DNA of 30,250 nt from the IMG/VR virus record IMGVR_UViG_3300049595_002631, positions 1 through 30,250 of that record; one strand, given 5' to 3'. Shown in pieces: positions 5,251 through 20,851 of this stretch (position 1 is the first letter of the stretch; each line of letters begins with the position of its first letter). The stretch comes from a virus. The position numbers and the translations under genes are program-made. The notes beneath the pieces are model-generated. The model did no database searches. It saw only the letters and a list, made by a program, of their open reading frames with translations, and was not told where the DNA came from.

Positions 5251-5501
5251 GGTGTCTTCTCCATGTCGGCGGCCTTGTCGGCGATCCACCCGGCCAGGGC
5301 CGCACCCTCCGGGGTCTTCAGGACGGCCGCCAGTCGGCGGGCCAGTTCGTCGTCGAGCCGATTGCCGGTTTTGCTCGCCAGCCACTCCATCGCGTCGGCG
5401 ATCACCTCGGCCCGCTGCCGGTCATCGGTGGCAGCCGACAGCCGACGGCCGTAGCCGAGCAGGGGAGCCCACTCCACGAGCAGCCGGACGCTGTCGAGCA
5501 T
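5247..5501 (-). CDS. Small helical hypothetical protein
   Basis: This 84-aa, mostly alpha-helical soluble protein begins MLDSVRLLVEWAPLLGYG and continues with charged helices (QRAEVIADAMEWLASKTGN; LDDELARRLAAVLKTPEG). No membrane segment, metal site or catalytic motif is evident. It starts 1 nt after the stop of the preceding gene and overlaps the following one by 4 nt, so it is part of the same translationally coupled cassette. Function not recognised. Confidence 0.62.
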   Translation of the reverse strand: MLDSVRLLVEWAPLLGYGRRLSAATDDRQRAEVIADAMEWLASKTGNRLDDELARRLAAVLKTPEGAALAGWIADKAADMEKTP

Positions 5502-5502
5502 G

Positions 5503-5874
5503 TCAGGCCCTCACGAGCGGAAGCACTTGCTCCACGGCCCCGGACGCCAGCGCCAACACGAGCGCCCGAACAGCCGGCCTGGCGATCATCCAGATCGGGT
5601 AGGCGACTGTCGGAACGGCCTTGTCGGCGACGGCGTCGAACAGGCTGGAGACGGCCTCCATGGCGAGCGCCTTTTTCTCAGCTCCTGTCATGGTGCCGAC
5701 GGCGTCCAGGCCGGCGATAACCAGCCGCAACAGGGCAAGCATGAGGTCGCCGAACTCGGCCCAGGTCAGGCCGCCTGCGGCCGCAGATTTTGCCGTCTCG
5801 ACGAACGCGTGGATCTTCGACAGCAGACCGGCGTCCAGGTTGCCGGCAACAGCGACAGGGGCGGCAGAAATCAT
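5503..5874 (-). CDS. Hydrophobic helical protein, possible membrane-associated lysis/cassette protein
   Basis: The product is 123 aa, starting with ATG at 5874 in an ATGA overlap with the prohead protease-HAD gene. It is alanine/leucine/valine-rich with several amphipathic to hydrophobic helices (LMLALLRLVIAGLDAV; VPTVAYPIWMIARPAVRALVLALASG) and few charges. A TGAEKKALAMEAV block separates the two hydrophobic parts. The composition suggests membrane association; a holin role is conceivable but unproven. It opens the eight-gene cassette that separates the protease from the capsid gene. Confidence 0.6.
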   Translation of the reverse strand: MISAAPVAVAGNLDAGLLSKIHAFVETAKSAAAGGLTWAEFGDLMLALLRLVIAGLDAVGTMTGAEKKALAMEAVSSLFDAVADKAVPTVAYPIWMIARPAVRALVLALASGAVEQVLPLVRA

Positions 5875-6875
5875 CGTGAGGCCTCCGTTGAACCGACAGC
5901 AATCCGCATCCGGGCGGCCGCGGCCGCCGCGGCGGCCCTGGCGCCCGCAAGCGTCGAGACCTTCACGCCGCGCGGGGACGCCGCGGCCCGCTCAGCGATC
6001 CCCTCCGGGTAGTCGTCGATCCAGATGTCGACAGAAAGGCCGGCGGCTGCTGCGGCCGACCGCTTTTGCTGGTCCGGCCCGACGAGCAGCACGCCGGCTA
6101 GTTCGTCGTGGATGTCCCCGAACGCGTCCCGCAGGGCGGCCCGGTTCTCCTCGGTGTCTTCGCGTCGAGTGATGCACACGACGCGGTTCCCACGGGCCTG
6201 GGCGTCGGCGACGAACGACCGCCACAGCCCTGGGGCCGCGGTGAACGTCCCGTCGAAGTCGAGCGAGATCGTCAGGCCGCGGGACTCGGCCCGGTGGGCC
6301 ATCGCGCTCCGGGCGTTCTTCCAGAGCGGGAGCGAACGGATCCCGGCCGTGCTTTGCGGGTAGGCCGGGTAGGTGACCGCCGAGATGTCGTAGAGGCCGC
6401 TCGCGCGGAACACCGTCCGGATCACGTTCCCCTTTTCGTCCTCGGTCCACGTCTCACCGTCCGGGGCTGACGTGAAGGCGAAACTCGCGCCGGTGATCGT
6501 GCGATCTTCGACGAGCATCGCGAGGTCGCGGCCGTGGGTCGTTTGGATCGGGCGGTGGGTGTACTCCAGCCCCTTCAGGCCCTTCCTGATCTCCAGCCGA
6601 CCATTCGTCGTCCGGCCCGTAATCAGGTGCGACAGGTGATCGGTGAGGAACGGAACGTCGATCTTCCCTCGCGGGTCGTTCGCCTTGCGGTCGACCAGGC
6701 CGTCGAAGGCCGTGGGCGCGAACTTCTCGCGGAAGCCGCCGAGGTCGACGGAGAACGAATCCCACGGCGGGGAGATCCCGGCGATGACGGGCGGCTCGCC
6801 GTCGCGCTTCTGGACGGTGATCGCGTCGGGGTAGTCGGCCGTGAGGAGATAGCGACGCTCGATCATGGTGGTCAT
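5871..6875 (-). CDS. HK97-family prohead protease fused to a C-terminal HAD-like phosphohydrolase domain
   Basis: The start is ATG at 6875 (MTTMIERRYLL), in an ATGA overlap with the portal stop; 334 aa. Residues about 1-185 are the U35 prohead protease. It has RYLLTADYP and the FREKFAPTAFD block, the catalytic His80 in FLTDHLSHLITGRT, and the catalytic Ser131 in ITGASFAF. The 'DISAVTYPAYPQS' ending is typical of the family. From about residue 200 a second domain begins, LTISLDFDGTF, with HAD motif I (Asp206, Asp208). Motif II-like CITRRED (Thr236) follows, and a DD pair (287-288) in DIWIDDYP. The protease cuts scaffold and capsid in the prohead. Whether the HAD domain is packaged, cleaved off or an independent phosphatase is unknown. 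The frame is continuous, with no sign of a sequencing join. Confidence 0.88.
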   Translation of the reverse strand: MTTMIERRYLLTADYPDAITVQKRDGEPPVIAGISPPWDSFSVDLGGFREKFAPTAFDGLVDRKANDPRGKIDVPFLTDHLSHLITGRTTNGRLEIRKGLKGLEYTHRPIQTTHGRDLAMLVEDRTITGASFAFTSAPDGETWTEDEKGNVIRTVFRASGLYDISAVTYPAYPQSTAGIRSLPLWKNARSAMAHRAESRGLTISLDFDGTFTAAPGLWRSFVADAQARGNRVVCITRREDTEENRAALRDAFGDIHDELAGVLLVGPDQQKRSAAAAAGLSVDIWIDDYPEGIAERAAASPRGVKVSTLAGARAAAAAAAARMRIAVGSTEASR

Positions 6876-16870: not shown

Positions 16871-17117
16871 TCGTCGCCTCCTTCGTCAAACCCAAGCGGG
16901 CCGCATACGCTCGGACCGCGTCCATGTGCTCGTGCGTGTAGCGGTAGTGCCCGTAGCGCTTCTCCGGTCGCGTAGATCGCCGCACGACCTGGCGGATGTC
17001 CCACACGCCGAGGCAGGGGATCTCGGCCAGCACCGCGGCCAGGAACTCCGACCACCGCATCCACTCGCGCGGCTCGTTGTCGCCACGCATCTCGGCGAAA
17101 CTCTTCCAGGTCGTCAC
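16863..17117 (-). CDS. Small hypothetical protein of the recombination operon
   Basis: The GTG at 17117 overlaps the Sak4-like stop (GTGA). The 84-aa product contains REWMRWSEFLAAVLAEIPCL, the GVWDIRQVVRRSTRPEKRYG block and HEHMDAVRAYAARLGL. The basic, aromatic and helical content suggests a small nucleic-acid-associated helical protein (a WH-like arrangement is possible). The longer frame to 17402 is a shadow of the ATPase. Being between the ATPase and SSB-like genes, it is probably an accessory recombination factor. Confidence 0.62.
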   Translation of the reverse strand: MTTWKSFAEMRGDNEPREWMRWSEFLAAVLAEIPCLGVWDIRQVVRRSTRPEKRYGHYRYTHEHMDAVRAYAARLGLTKEATNV

Positions 17118-18037
17118 GCCGTGGCCTCCTGCGGGTCGATCGCGTCTTCCCGCTTGGCGATCTCGGCGTCGAGCCGGTTCCGCTGGCTCTCGGTCATGTC
17201 GCCGGCGGTCACGGCCTGGTCGGCCTCGTCGGCGATCCGGCCGAGGGCCTCGACGGTCTGGGCCTTGGCGACCCGCTCCATCCATCCAAGCGGCCTGGCT
17301 GGGACAGACGCCGTGGCCCTTTGTCCCTCGAACAGGGCCGCGAGGGCCTCGATCGACATTGGCAACTCGGCCCCGAGGCCGTAGCGGTTCTTCGCATCCC
17401 ACGCCGCTGTACGCTCCGCGAACAGGATCCGTTCCTTCCCGCCCTTGGCACGTGTCCGGCCGTCAGCCCCCTCGACCAGTCGCGTCCTGTAGTTCGCAAA
17501 CAGGAGGGCGTCTGCCCACTCTTTGACGAGCGGCGCAACCTGTCGCGAGAGCTTCAGCTCGTACCGATCCCAGCCCTCGTCGAGGTCTGGCGGCGTCGTC
17601 CGCTTCACGGTCGAGTGGCCGACAAACACCACGTTCACGCCGCGGTCGATCAGGTTGTCGGCCATCCCCAGGAACGCAGACATGACCTCGGCGATCTTCA
17701 CAAACCCTTTTCCGAACCCGTAGTCCTCGACGCTCCGCTTGCCGTCCTTCCGGAGCATGTGCTCCAGGCCGAGCCGCTCGGCCCAGTCCACCGAATCGAC
17801 GACCACCGTCTGGAAGCCCTGGGCGTTGCCGCCGAGGTCCACCATGGCCCCAGTCAGCGTCATCCAGTCGCCGCACCGCACGCGGGCGCAGTCGATCTGC
17901 CGCGTCCCGTCCTCGGTGTCGAGGATCACCGGGTTCGGGAACTGTGCCGCCAGCGTGCTCTTGCCGATGCCCTCGGTGCCGTACAGCACCACGCGGGCCG
18001 CGCCGCGGCTGACGCCGCGCTCGATCTTGATCGCCAT
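17114..18037 (-). CDS. Sak4-like RecA-fold ATPase (ssDNA annealing/recombination)
   Basis: The ATG at 18037 is part of a TGATG junction with the upstream stop; 307 aa. Walker A is GTEGIGKST (residues 20-28), Walker B is TVVVDSVDW (77-85). FVGHSTVKRTTPPD is the sensor/L1-like part. The N-terminal RecA-like core is typical of the AAA_24/Sak4 family of short phage recombinases that anneal single strands and work with a partner SSB. The C-terminal third (LGRIADEADQAVTAGDMTESQ...) is a helical extension. It is the central gene of the early operon. Confidence 0.88.
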   Translation of the reverse strand: MAIKIERGVSRGAARVVLYGTEGIGKSTLAAQFPNPVILDTEDGTRQIDCARVRCGDWMTLTGAMVDLGGNAQGFQTVVVDSVDWAERLGLEHMLRKDGKRSVEDYGFGKGFVKIAEVMSAFLGMADNLIDRGVNVVFVGHSTVKRTTPPDLDEGWDRYELKLSRQVAPLVKEWADALLFANYRTRLVEGADGRTRAKGGKERILFAERTAAWDAKNRYGLGAELPMSIEALAALFEGQRATASVPARPLGWMERVAKAQTVEALGRIADEADQAVTAGDMTESQRNRLDAEIAKREDAIDPQEATA

Positions 18038-18312
18038 CACTTCCCCTCAAATGTGCGGACCGTCTCGATGTCGACCCAGCCCGCGCGGGCCAGCGTCGTC
18101 AAATCGGAGGCGGCCGGTCCGTCGACCGCCCCCGACCAGGTGCATCCATGCCGTCCGGCCTCCAGCCGGCATCCAGGTCCGCGGCATCCGCCACGGACCA
18201 CATCCCTGCGGTTCATGACAATCGCCATACCGATGACCACAGTCCCGACCGTAAACGTCATCACGAACGCGGCAGACGCGATCAGCAAAAACCCGATCAG
18301 CTGAGTGTTCAC
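18037..18312 (-). CDS. Small membrane protein with Cys-rich cytosolic part
   Basis: The GTG at 18312 (GTGA overlap) gives 91 aa. The N-terminal segment LIGFLLIASAAFVMTFTVGTVVIGMAIV (about 4-32) is one long or two short transmembrane helices. It is followed by a basic stretch with three cysteines and a His (GGCRGPGCRLEAGRHGCTW), then a short soluble helix ending FEGK. The Cys/His spacing might bind a metal. An early-expressed membrane protein could modify the host envelope or exclude other phages; no family is recognised. Confidence 0.6.
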   Translation of the reverse strand: MNTQLIGFLLIASAAFVMTFTVGTVVIGMAIVMNRRDVVRGGCRGPGCRLEAGRHGCTWSGAVDGPAASDLTTLARAGWVDIETVRTFEGK

Positions 18313-18568: not shown

Positions 18569-18799
18569 TCAGGCCCTCGCGATCTGGCTCGGGCTGACAT
18601 TCGCGAGCTTGCCATCGGCCTGCATCACGAGATGCACATCTCCGGAGATCGCCTCGATGCGGCCGCTACGGATCCCGTCGGAAGAGTGCCACGAGATCCA
18701 ATCGCCGACCGACGGCAGCGGCCGGCCGTAGGTGTCCTGCATCCCTGCGACGGCCGCGGAGGCCTCCGCGTCACCAGGCATCCGTTCGTTGGCGTCCAT
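18569..18799 (-). CDS. First gene of the early operon; small beta-barrel-like protein
   Basis: The 76-aa product has a short acidic leader and then a compact domain: PSVGDWISWHSSDGIRSGRIEAISGDVHLVMQADGKLANVSPSQI. The 'VGD-x-V/I-x-W...G-x-I' pattern is that of small SH3/KOW-like barrels (hypervirulence-type DUF2945-like). A related pattern ends the portal protein. It is the first gene after the putative early promoter, about 36 nt from the expected start point, so it should be among the first made. Confidence 0.68.
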   Translation of the reverse strand: MDANERMPGDAEASAAVAGMQDTYGRPLPSVGDWISWHSSDGIRSGRIEAISGDVHLVMQADGKLANVSPSQIARA

Positions 18800-18818: not shown

Positions 18819-18830
18819 TGTGGTTAGAAC
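18819..18830. promoter_or_regulatory. Operator-like motif, copy 1 (TGTGGTTAGAAC)
   Basis: The plus strand reads TGTGGTTAGAAC. It overlaps the start region of the early transcript, 11 nt below the -10. The same 12 bases occur at 18852-18863 and 19035-19046. Confidence 0.55.
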
Positions 18831-18841
18831 TGACGAGGGGT

Positions 18842-18870
18842 GTTGTAGGGATGTGGTTAGAACGTGTCAA
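18842..18870 (-). promoter_or_regulatory. Early promoter, sigma70-like: TTGACA-N17-TACAAC
   Basis: On the minus strand, -35 TTGACA (18865-18870, perfect) and -10 TACAAC (18842-18847) are separated by exactly 17 nt. The operator-like GTTCTAACCAC lies in the spacer (18853-18863), and a second copy overlaps the region just after the expected start point (18820-18830). The promoter reads into the early operon (18799 downwards). This is the design of a repressor-controlled lytic promoter. Confidence 0.72.
18852..18863. promoter_or_regulatory. Operator-like motif, copy 2, in the promoter spacer
   Basis: TGTGGTTAGAAC (plus strand), 33 bp from copy 1 (about three helical turns) and within the -35/-10 spacer of the early promoter. 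The stop codon of the 51-aa ORF also falls in it. Confidence 0.6.
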
Positions 18871-19012
18871 CAGTGAAAAAAGACGCGAGTTTCCCGGCGA
18901 TTTCAGCGACGGCGAAAACAGAGCGGGCCAGCGGAGAATCCGTTCCCAGTTCCTGGCCGAGCCGAACGAGCACGAGGGCGGTCACAAGGCCGTTCCAGTT
19001 GATCCGACGCAT
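18857..19012 (-). CDS. 51-aa small protein between the operator copies
   Basis: ATG at 19012, TAA at 18857-18859. The ATG is preceded by a good GCAGGAG. The product begins MRRINWNGLVTALVLVRLGQ and contains SPLARSVFAVAEIAGKLASFF. A hydrophobic N-terminal helix (about 7-18) and a second amphipathic helix suggest membrane association. It falls below the length of most automatic calls. Its 3' end overlaps the early promoter, so translation or transcription through it could modulate that promoter. Function unknown. Confidence 0.62.
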   Translation of the reverse strand: MRRINWNGLVTALVLVRLGQELGTDSPLARSVFAVAEIAGKLASFFTVDTF

Positions 19013-19034
19013 CGGGTTCTCCTGCTTGTAGAGA

Positions 19035-19050
19035 TGTGGTTAGAACCACA
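19035..19050. promoter_or_regulatory. Palindromic operator TGTGGTTAGAACCACA, copy 3
   Basis: Perfect 7-bp arms (19035-19041, 19044-19050) around a central AG, a typical site for a dimeric repressor. The copies nearer the early promoter keep the left half exactly. The bases after it on the minus strand (ATCTCTACAA) also match those after copy 2 (ATCCCTACAA), so a longer block of about 23 bases is duplicated. Confidence 0.68.
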
Positions 19051-19083: not shown

Positions 19084-19308
19084 TCAGGCGGACCGCCGGC
19101 CCTTGCGAGGGCGGCCGGTCGTCGGGATCTCTTTCGCCTTGCGCTCGACCTCGTCCTTGTCGTAGACGAGGGCGCGGTTGTGAAGATGGCCGCACCACAG
19201 GTCGCCAGCCAGGGCAAGCTGGCGGATCCTCCCCATGCTACAGCCGAAGATCTCGGCGGCTTCGCGGGTGTTGATGTAGGTCAGACCGGGCTTCGGTTTG
19301 AATGGCAT
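19084..19308 (-). CDS. Small HTH (excisionase/MerR-like) DNA-binding protein; candidate Cro/repressor/Xis
   Basis: The ATG at 19308 (MPFKPKPGLTYINTREAAEI) has GGAGG at 8 nt; an ATG two codons further upstream (19314) is too close to that site. The product is 74 aa. Its HTH_17 fold is YINTREAAEIFGCSMGRIRQLALAGDL, followed by a wing (LVYDKDEVERKAKEI) and a basic tail (GRPRKGRRSA). Such proteins are phage excisionases or small repressors. Its place next to three operator copies and near the integrase makes a genetic-switch role likely; which of the two it is cannot be decided here. Confidence 0.8.
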   Translation of the reverse strand: MPFKPKPGLTYINTREAAEIFGCSMGRIRQLALAGDLWCGHLHNRALVYDKDEVERKAKEIPTTGRPRKGRRSA

Positions 19309-19367
19309 CTTCATGGCCTCCGTAGCGTAGGTGTTCGGTGCCGTGAATCAACACGGCGGCCAGACGG

Positions 19368-19951: not shown

Positions 19952-20851
19952 ATGACTCTCGACCGATTCCTGACCGACGTGTATGTCCCGCTTCGGCTCC
20001 GCGGCCGCTCCCCCGAGAGCGTCCGCCTTCTGCGACACGCCATCACCCAGTTCTCGCGATGGCTCGGCCGTCCTGCACTGCTCAATGACCTTGAGGATCT
20101 CGTCGTCAGCCAGTGGCTCACGAGGATGGCAGAGAAGAAGTCGCCGAACAGCGTTGCCCGCGAGCGGAGCGGGATCCTCGCCTTGTGGAACCTCGCCCAG
20201 GGCCGCGGGCTTGTGAAGCTGCGGCCAACGGTCGCCCCGGAACTCGTGCCCCAGTCCACGCCGCGGGCGTTCACTGCCGACGAGCTGGGGCGGCTTGCCC
20301 AGTCTGCGAAGTGGTCGAGTGGGTGGGTCGGCCCCGTGCCGGCGGCGGTTTTCTTCCAGGCCTTGATCGCCGTGGGGCTTGAGACGGGCGAGCGAATCAA
20401 TGCCCTGTTGAAGACGCCGAAGCACTGCTGGCAGCGGCCGACGCTCACGGTCCCAGCCGTGGTGCGGAAAGGGAAACGGCAGGAGCGGGTGTACGAACTT
20501 TCGCCAGAGGCTTGCGATCTCATGGACGCCGTGACGAGGCACGAGGGGCCGACGGCGTTTTGGTGGGTGGCGTCGAACACGGCGCTGCGGAAAAGGTGGA
20601 AGACCATTACGCGGCGCGCCGGGCTCGGTGACGGACGCGATGTCCAGTTCCATGCCCTGCGGCGCTCAACCGCATCGCACCTCGCGGCCGCCGGCCTCGA
20701 CGCGACAAGCTACCTCGGGCACTCGACGGACAGGATCACGCGTCGGTCGTACCTTGACCCTCGCGTCGTGGACTCGCGGCGACCGAAGGCGTGGCAGTCG
20801 CTGCCGAGGATCTTCAAGCCCGACACGGAGCCTCCTGCACGATCGGCGTAA
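19952..20851 (+). CDS. int: Tyrosine recombinase integrase
   Basis: The only plus-strand gene; 299 aa. The N-terminal SAM-like core-binding part (SVRLLRHAITQFSRWLG) is followed by the catalytic domain. Arg148 is in GLETGERINALL, Lys173/175 in VVRKGKRQ, His234 and Arg237 in FHALRRSTASHLAAAG, His257 in YLGHST, and the nucleophile Tyr267 in RSYLDP. All six residues of the R-K-H-R-H-Y set are present, so it should be active. It integrates the genome into, and excises it from, the host chromosome. The ATG follows GCGGAGG by 8 nt. The 3' end overlaps the converging minus gene by 38 nt. Confidence 0.94.
   Translation: MTLDRFLTDVYVPLRLRGRSPESVRLLRHAITQFSRWLGRPALLNDLEDLVVSQWLTRMAEKKSPNSVARERSGILALWNLAQGRGLVKLRPTVAPELVPQSTPRAFTADELGRLAQSAKWSSGWVGPVPAAVFFQALIAVGLETGERINALLKTPKHCWQRPTLTVPAVVRKGKRQERVYELSPEACDLMDAVTRHEGPTAFWWVASNTALRKRWKTITRRAGLGDGRDVQFHALRRSTASHLAAAGLDATSYLGHSTDRITRRSYLDPRVVDSRRPKAWQSLPRIFKPDTEPPARSA

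Follow-up and report, generated by a model that had tools for sequence, protein, structure and literature searches.

The stretch of DNA analysed here, referred to as the window, comprises 30,250 nucleotides and corresponds to the IMG/VR record IMGVR_UViG_3300049595_002631, a linear virus contig. On its minus strand, a gene for a 76-amino acid wHTH protein (19084..19314) precedes a small ORF of 51 amino acids (18857..19012) and another 76-amino acid ORF (18569..18799; ATG at 18799), which would be the first to be transcribed from the predicted early promoter. Further along this gene run, a gene for an AAA_24/Sak4-like ssDNA annealing protein (17114..18040) is found; the run probably constitutes the early operon. 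A tyrosine integrase gene (19952..20851, plus strand; Pfam Phage_integrase, 1.5e-08) is located divergently from the wHTH gene.

A search of the whole window revealed three exact copies of the sequence GTTCTAACCACA, starting at positions 18819, 18852, and 19035 as given in the preliminary description. All of them are found on the minus strand, which is also the strand of the neighbouring gene run, and they have one and the same orientation relative to transcription. With up to two mismatches allowed, four matches were obtained, compared with a mean of 0.78 expected from shuffled sequences; the fourth match is the reverse reading of the palindromic third copy.

The second copy, O2 (18852..18863, minus strand), is embedded in the predicted early promoter. 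A −35 box TTGACA (18865..18870, minus strand) and a −10 box TACAAC (18842..18847, minus strand) are separated by a spacer of 17 nt (18864-18848 on the minus strand), within which O2 is found, so that the placement originally described for this copy is borne out; O2 also contains the TAA stop codon of the 51-amino acid ORF. In its extended form, GTTCTA-N10-TACAAC (18842..18863, minus strand), O2 possesses a partly inverted right arm that is at the same time the −10 box. This arm reads TACAAC in the window and TAGAAC in many relatives. The operator overlaps, by its position in the spacer and by its right arm, essential promoter elements. The −10 box, which is TAGAAC or TAAAAC in relatives of the same operator class (class A) and mostly TAnnnT in other classes, compares poorly with the consensus, which was assumed and may not be that of the host. 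The early promoter was not called in a consensus promoter scan of the window because the scanner demanded a T at the last −10 position, which is a C here.

Transcription is predicted to start at about 18835 on the minus strand. Copy O1 (18819..18830, minus strand) is located directly downstream, at about +6 to +17, in the predicted 5′ leader, which agrees with its earlier assignment to the start of transcription; it is kept in class A relatives. Copy O3 (19035..19046, minus strand) begins 37 nt past the stop codon of the wHTH gene and just upstream of the 51-amino acid ORF; like O1, it is thus situated just upstream of a start codon, and in the window it is devoid of a good −35 box. It is contained in the 16-bp palindrome TGTGGTTCTAACCACA (19035-19050, minus strand), which had been reported as a full palindrome. 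The palindrome is present, with arms of 7 bp, but its CT/AG centre is non-symmetric, and it is confined to the clade of the window. No copy of the class A operator was found in the window at the wHTH gene promoter, at the integrase promoter, or in the interval between the two genes. The candidate promoter of the wHTH gene itself, TTGATT-N16-TACGCT (19324..19351, minus strand), has the same layout in class A relatives.

The wHTH protein is the putative reader of O1 to O3, as judged from Pfam, structure prediction, Foldseek, and co-variation. Its length of 74 amino acids in the preliminary description holds for translation from the second ATG; from the first ATG (19314), it comprises 76 amino acids. 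It matches the Pfam family HTH_17 at 4.7e-05, which is below the curated cut-off, and shows a weak PHROG match to excisionase. The AlphaFold2 model is moderately confident (mean pLDDT 76.5) and suggests an Xis/BldC-like fold, its Foldseek neighbours being Pukovnik Xis, BldC, and RdfS (probability 0.99-1.00) as well as RacA, with E-values of 0.01-0.1. For Pukovnik Xis, the probability is 1.00, with a TM score of 0.71-0.74 by target length and an E-value of 0.01-0.02. The polypeptide ends after the wHTH and one additional helix; the coiled coil and the dimerisation and effector portions known from classical MerR proteins are absent. Neither the wHTH protein nor the small ORF had a match in a phage collection, and neither the small ORF nor the integrase had one in a plasmid collection. 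A genome scan for relatives yielded an uninformative partial match, and the terminase gave matches of less than 60% identity only.

The 51-amino acid ORF belongs to the LVRLGQELGTDSPLA family (LVRLGQELGTDSPLARAVxD), relatives of which were found in 128 viral stretches, many of them directly upstream of an early promoter. It is a widespread, undescribed small protein family; the window copy has no Pfam or PHROG match. The 3′ end of the ORF overlaps both the −35 box and O2. At 13 class A loci, the third bases of its last five codons are constant to 100, 100, 100, 85, and 100%, while the mean majority of the third base in the preceding 35 codons is 63%, and of 16 codons further upstream that specify an invariant amino acid, just two have a constant third base. 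Other classes have TTGACA across the small-ORF end in a different frame (offset −4 versus −14). Since the third codon positions are frozen at the end of the small ORF and the frame of TTGACA differs between classes, this conservation acts at the level of DNA and not of protein.

Operators in class A relatives and in the wider phage group

Relatives of the wHTH protein are encoded on 23 IMG/VR contigs, 21 of them at 74-95% identity, and the records of 19 of the 23 also contain an integrase. In the close relatives that cover the region, the three copies follow in the same order, at times with one or two bases changed; the motif, the absence of which from close relatives had been named as a refutation in the preliminary description, is present in every one of them. 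The core GTTYTARCCAC has exactly three matches in eight of the nine whole class A records, including the window, and two in the remaining record (G001), where O1 reads GTTCTAACTACA and is one base off the core. In all nine records, which may be incomplete, the matches are clustered at the locus in one orientation per record, and none was found outside it. The arrangement TTGACA-n-GTTYTAACCAC with O1 33-35 bp downstream is common to all class A loci entered in the operator table. The distance between O1 and O2 is 33 bp, and 35 bp in one phage; the approximately three helical turns proposed between these copies are characteristic of class A and do not represent a general rule, other classes mostly showing 22-34 bp. 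The palindrome TGTGGTTAGAACCACA was rejected as a general operator, being confined to the clade of the window. The broader symmetry of O3 in class A is GTTCTA-N10-TAGAAC, and many copies read GTTCTAG-N8-CTAGAAC. In one relative (L022), a gene insertion (5271-5945) splits O3 from the small ORF, whereby O3 stays with the wHTH gene and O1 and O2 stay with the small ORF. Sequence similar to this insert follows O3 in L014 (5269-5387) up to the contig end, and TATGCTTCCCC is found downstream of O3 in both. A remote relative, L025, encodes a wHTH protein that is 47-48% identical to that of the window, with a nearly identical recognition helix; its repeats (512-530, 696-712) are CGAACTAACGA and have CTAAC in common with the window operator.

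For a broader survey, the best 80 of the 128 viral stretches with the small ORF were fetched, and more loci were obtained via two other HTH types. In total, 48 unique HTH-spacer pairs were assembled, the loci being selected for a TTGAC near the small-ORF terminus; as the loci were found via the HTH protein and the small ORF, the collection covers phages of that layout. For the co-variation analysis, 45 loci were kept, while L025, L185, and L120 were excluded for a misplaced TTGAC or an HTH gene cut by the contig end. These roughly 45 phage loci have a common layout, consisting of TTGACA at the terminus of the conserved small ORF (TTGAC in 45 of 45, by selection), a spacer of 16-17 nt (43 of 45), and usually a second copy downstream. 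For 37 of the 48 pairs, a further copy of the spacer sequence, oriented alike, is found downstream (shuffle p <0.05) at a distance of 20-35 bp, mostly 22-35 bp. About a dozen unrelated operator sequences are found across the loci, examples of which are, by class, GTTCTAACCACA (window), GTTCTAACGCCGCCGCTA, AAGTAACGCTACCG, AAGTGACGCTA, TTTACCGCTATCGGTA, TGGTTCCGATTTCGG, GTTTTACCCATGAAG, and AAGCTACCGACAT.

Within 100 nt past the wHTH gene, 35 of the 45 loci match their own operator more closely than each of the foreign ones, compared with two of 45 for a control region. This site is part of a promoter-like arrangement (spacer of 16-17 nt) in most non-A classes, where it often comes close to a palindrome. 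Upstream of the wHTH gene, where TTGACn-N16-TAnnnT is present in most of the listed loci, the own operator outscores every foreign one in 14 of the 31 non-A loci and in one of the 14 class A loci; in the non-A loci, it averages 10.5 of 14 matching bases versus 8.8 for foreign operators. In some of these other classes, the operator at the wHTH gene promoter is in reverse orientation. Autoregulation of the wHTH gene is indicated by these matches for many non-A classes; the window is not included in this statement.

Further sequence elements were observed in the collection. In non-A loci, the leader after the O3 promoter contains a hairpin, GGCGAG-caaaTGAGA-CTCGCC, followed by GGGAGACGAAACG-ATG (plus strand; L160:2821-2882, L162:2536-2594, L169:2808-2866, L074:2660-2720, L133:2594-2655, L094:2697-2757, and others). 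Two-sided changes are found in four of the six predicted pairs among 17 sequences, and a comparison of four loci with Rfam gave no match. In many non-A classes (L160, L162, L149, and others), the mRNA of the wHTH gene may be leaderless, because the −10 box TAGTAT of its promoter ends 6 nt before the ATG (TAGTATTGGGGCATG). An inverted repeat, GGTGGGGCCACCCGGCC...CGGGTGGCA, is conserved ahead of the small ORF at many loci (L074, L075, L081, L082, L094) and perhaps represents a terminator or cassette boundary.

Co-variation of operator and wHTH protein

At all 45 loci, a wHTH protein of one remote family is encoded upstream of the small ORF. In a Mantel comparison, the distance between operators is correlated with the distance between wHTH proteins (rho 0.73; none of 2000 permutations as high), and the value is 0.72 when the small ORF is controlled for in a partial test. 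The corresponding value for operator and small ORF is 0.18. The small ORF abuts the operator and separates it from the wHTH gene, yet the operator follows the wHTH protein. With one representative per HTH group, rho is 0.56 for 20 and 0.52 for 12 representatives (none of 5000 permutations as high in either case), and 0.29 for 10 representatives (p 0.03); the small ORF is not significant at any level. Collapsing the groups removes relatedness only partly, while natural recombinants are independent of it. The loci L125 and L084, whose small ORFs differ by 9% and whose wHTH proteins differ by 87%, have unrelated operators; conversely, L153 and L156 differ by 59% in the small ORF and by 8% in the wHTH protein and have the same operator. 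Among proteins with the helices MGRIRQ or MGRMRQ/MGRVRQ, operators with TAAC accompany L, I, or V at residue 35, and those with TACC accompany R35, as compared by eye and with relatedness ignored. Because the operator sequence follows the wHTH protein and not the small ORF, despite recombination between the two, the 76-amino acid protein is seen as the reader of the operator, to whose copies it would in all likelihood, judging from these comparisons, bind as a repressor of the early promoter.

Proposed mode of action and alternative roles

In the proposed scenario, the 76-amino acid wHTH protein (19084-19314) would be a sequence-specific regulator of this temperate phage. It would bind GTTCTAACCACA at O2 and O1 and thereby exclude RNA polymerase from the early promoter, with O2 covering the spacer, including the right arm that serves as −10 box, and O1 covering the start region. 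O3 would be a third site, acting as an auxiliary site or as a block to read-through from the wHTH gene. Spacers of 16-17 nt are normal for sigma-70 promoters. Since this is the spacing in 43 of the 45 loci, a site in the spacer and −10 box of such a promoter should block and not activate transcription. The central claim of the preliminary description, namely, an early promoter under repressor control whose spacer contains an operator, is strongly supported at the level of sequence comparison, by the motif in every close relative covered and by its co-variation with the wHTH protein.

As to the biological role of the protein, that of a lysogeny (immunity) repressor is considered the likeliest because the integrase gene adjoins its own, and the chances of this assignment being correct are put at about even. 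The main alternative would leave binding and repression unchanged and would make the protein a Cro/Cox/Apl-like down-regulator of early genes or endow it with additional excisionase activity. Its pronounced form, in which the protein is mainly an excisionase (RDF) or a lytic regulator of the Cox/Apl type, with repression as an additional activity, instead of a lysogeny repressor, is possible but doubtful. Pukovnik Xis and RdfS are among the best neighbours of the predicted structure, the weak PHROG match points in the same direction, the divergent integrase is adjacent in the window and, as mentioned, frequent in the relatives' records, and Apl of phage 186 performs both jobs (PMC7498355). On the other hand, no operator copy is found near the integrase gene or in the interval between both genes of the window, and in many other classes the operator is present in the gene's own promoter. 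In addition, RDF sites are spaced by one helical turn (PMC7498355), while the sites described here are 22-35 bp apart and located in promoters.

The remaining explanations concern the mode of action and the reader of the sites. A MerR-like activator, which would bind the spacer and remodel the promoter, is improbable; it would be in line with the MerR-type wHTH domain and with a spacer operator as in classical MerR regulators, but the spacers of the latter measure 19-20 bp (PMC5859096), the short protein has neither coiled coil nor effector domain, and a second site covering the start region is more in keeping with blocking. An action of the sites on elongation, as roadblock or stoperator, or at the RNA level instead of initiation, is quite improbable. 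The single orientation in the window, the proximity of O1 and O3 to start codons, and the position of O3 after the wHTH stop codon would be compatible with it; against it, there are only three sites per record, clustered and with none dispersed, O2 is upstream of the −10 box and, consequently, outside the transcript of its own promoter, and the sites of other classes are inside promoter spacers, some of those at the wHTH gene promoter being reversed. Recognition of the operator by a host protein or by another phage protein is very improbable: the link between wHTH protein and operator is drawn from sequence comparison, with co-variation run on the wHTH protein and the small ORF, but the similarity of operators follows the wHTH protein over about a dozen types, recombinants included. 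Finally, that the repeats would be due to chance or to coding conservation of the small-ORF end is hardly conceivable. O2 does overlap the last codons of the 51-amino acid ORF, but O1 and O3 are outside of it, the repeats are conserved across class A records, and for O2 itself coding conservation is ruled out by the third positions, frozen exactly at this end, and by the other frame of TTGACA in other classes.

Phages of this kind would have diversified the protein and its operators jointly into about a dozen specificities, comparable to immunity groups. In its most general form, the proposal reads that numerous uncultured temperate phages employ immunity repressors of the stand-alone Xis/BldC wHTH type acting in the 16-17 bp spacers of up to three promoters, namely, those of the early genes, of the downstream cassette, and, in many classes, of the repressor gene itself, and that divergence, together with recombination beside the small ORF, has given rise to the approximately one dozen matched specificities; this generalization may equally well turn out to be right or wrong. 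If true, the matched set of proteins and operators would constitute a natural recognition code for the Xis/BldC-type fold. Matched protein/operator pairs are provided here within the Xis/BldC/MerR wHTH fold, the recognition rules of which are, to our knowledge, little explored. A probable repressor along with its operators would be obtained from sequence alone for a phage group of which no cultured member is known, and predictions of superinfection-immunity groups would become possible for uncultured phages.

Comparison with known systems

In a lambda-type switch, a temperate phage uses three related operators, around which a divergent promoter pair for repressor and Cro is arranged. The present locus shares the three related operators and the temperate lifestyle; the layout, however, speaks against a lambda-like bistable switch, since all three sites are downstream of the wHTH gene, point in one direction, and are not flanked by a divergent pair. 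The designation as a genetic switch in the preliminary description is, consequently, not upheld in the lambda sense, there being neither a divergent promoter pair on shared operators nor, in the window, a copy at the wHTH or integrase promoter.

The closest fold is that of the Xis/RDF wHTH regulators, such as Apl of phage 186, P2 Cox, Pukovnik Xis, and RdfS, with which the locus also has the adjacent tyrosine integrase in common; of these, Apl represses early promoters. RDF proteins bind directly repeated sites spaced by one turn, which for Apl are located at att as well as between the early promoters (PMC7498355). The operators described here differ in that they reside in promoter spacers at distances of 22-35 bp, with none near the integrase gene of the window; instead of tandem one-turn sites near att, a spacing of 33 bp is found. 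Members of the BldC family are likewise stand-alone MerR-like wHTH proteins of about 70 amino acids without coiled coil and with sites in direct orientation, BldC protomers being bound head to tail to 9-bp direct repeats (PMC5859096). Unlike these, the present sites are separate and 33 bp apart, and O3 is single, with a tendency to dyad symmetry in other classes. With classical MerR proteins and MerR-type repressors such as CvkR (PMC9938897), the system shares the MerR-type wHTH domain and the operator between the −35 and −10 boxes; it differs from classical MerR by the absence of a dimerisation/effector domain and by the normal 16-17 bp spacer, a length by which MerR-type activation is disfavoured.

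In cluster A mycobacteriophages (L5, Bxb1), the repressor and its operator motif have diverged jointly, giving distinct specificities (PMC6550527, PMC9283540). Similarities to this system are a short, asymmetric, repeated operator, its one orientation relative to transcription, and its occurrence at an early lytic promoter. While L5-type phages possess more than 20 dispersed sites and a two-domain repressor of 183 residues, three clustered sites and a single wHTH of 76 amino acids are found here, and a cluster A stoperator system is ruled out by the clustering of the sites in the nine class A records, which may be incomplete. No description of the present system was found in the open-access literature. 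The joint divergence of repressor and operator is, thus, already known from the cluster A mycobacteriophages; the present system differs in the fold of its protein, in having three clustered sites, in their position within promoter spacers, and in how many unrelated specificities are found.
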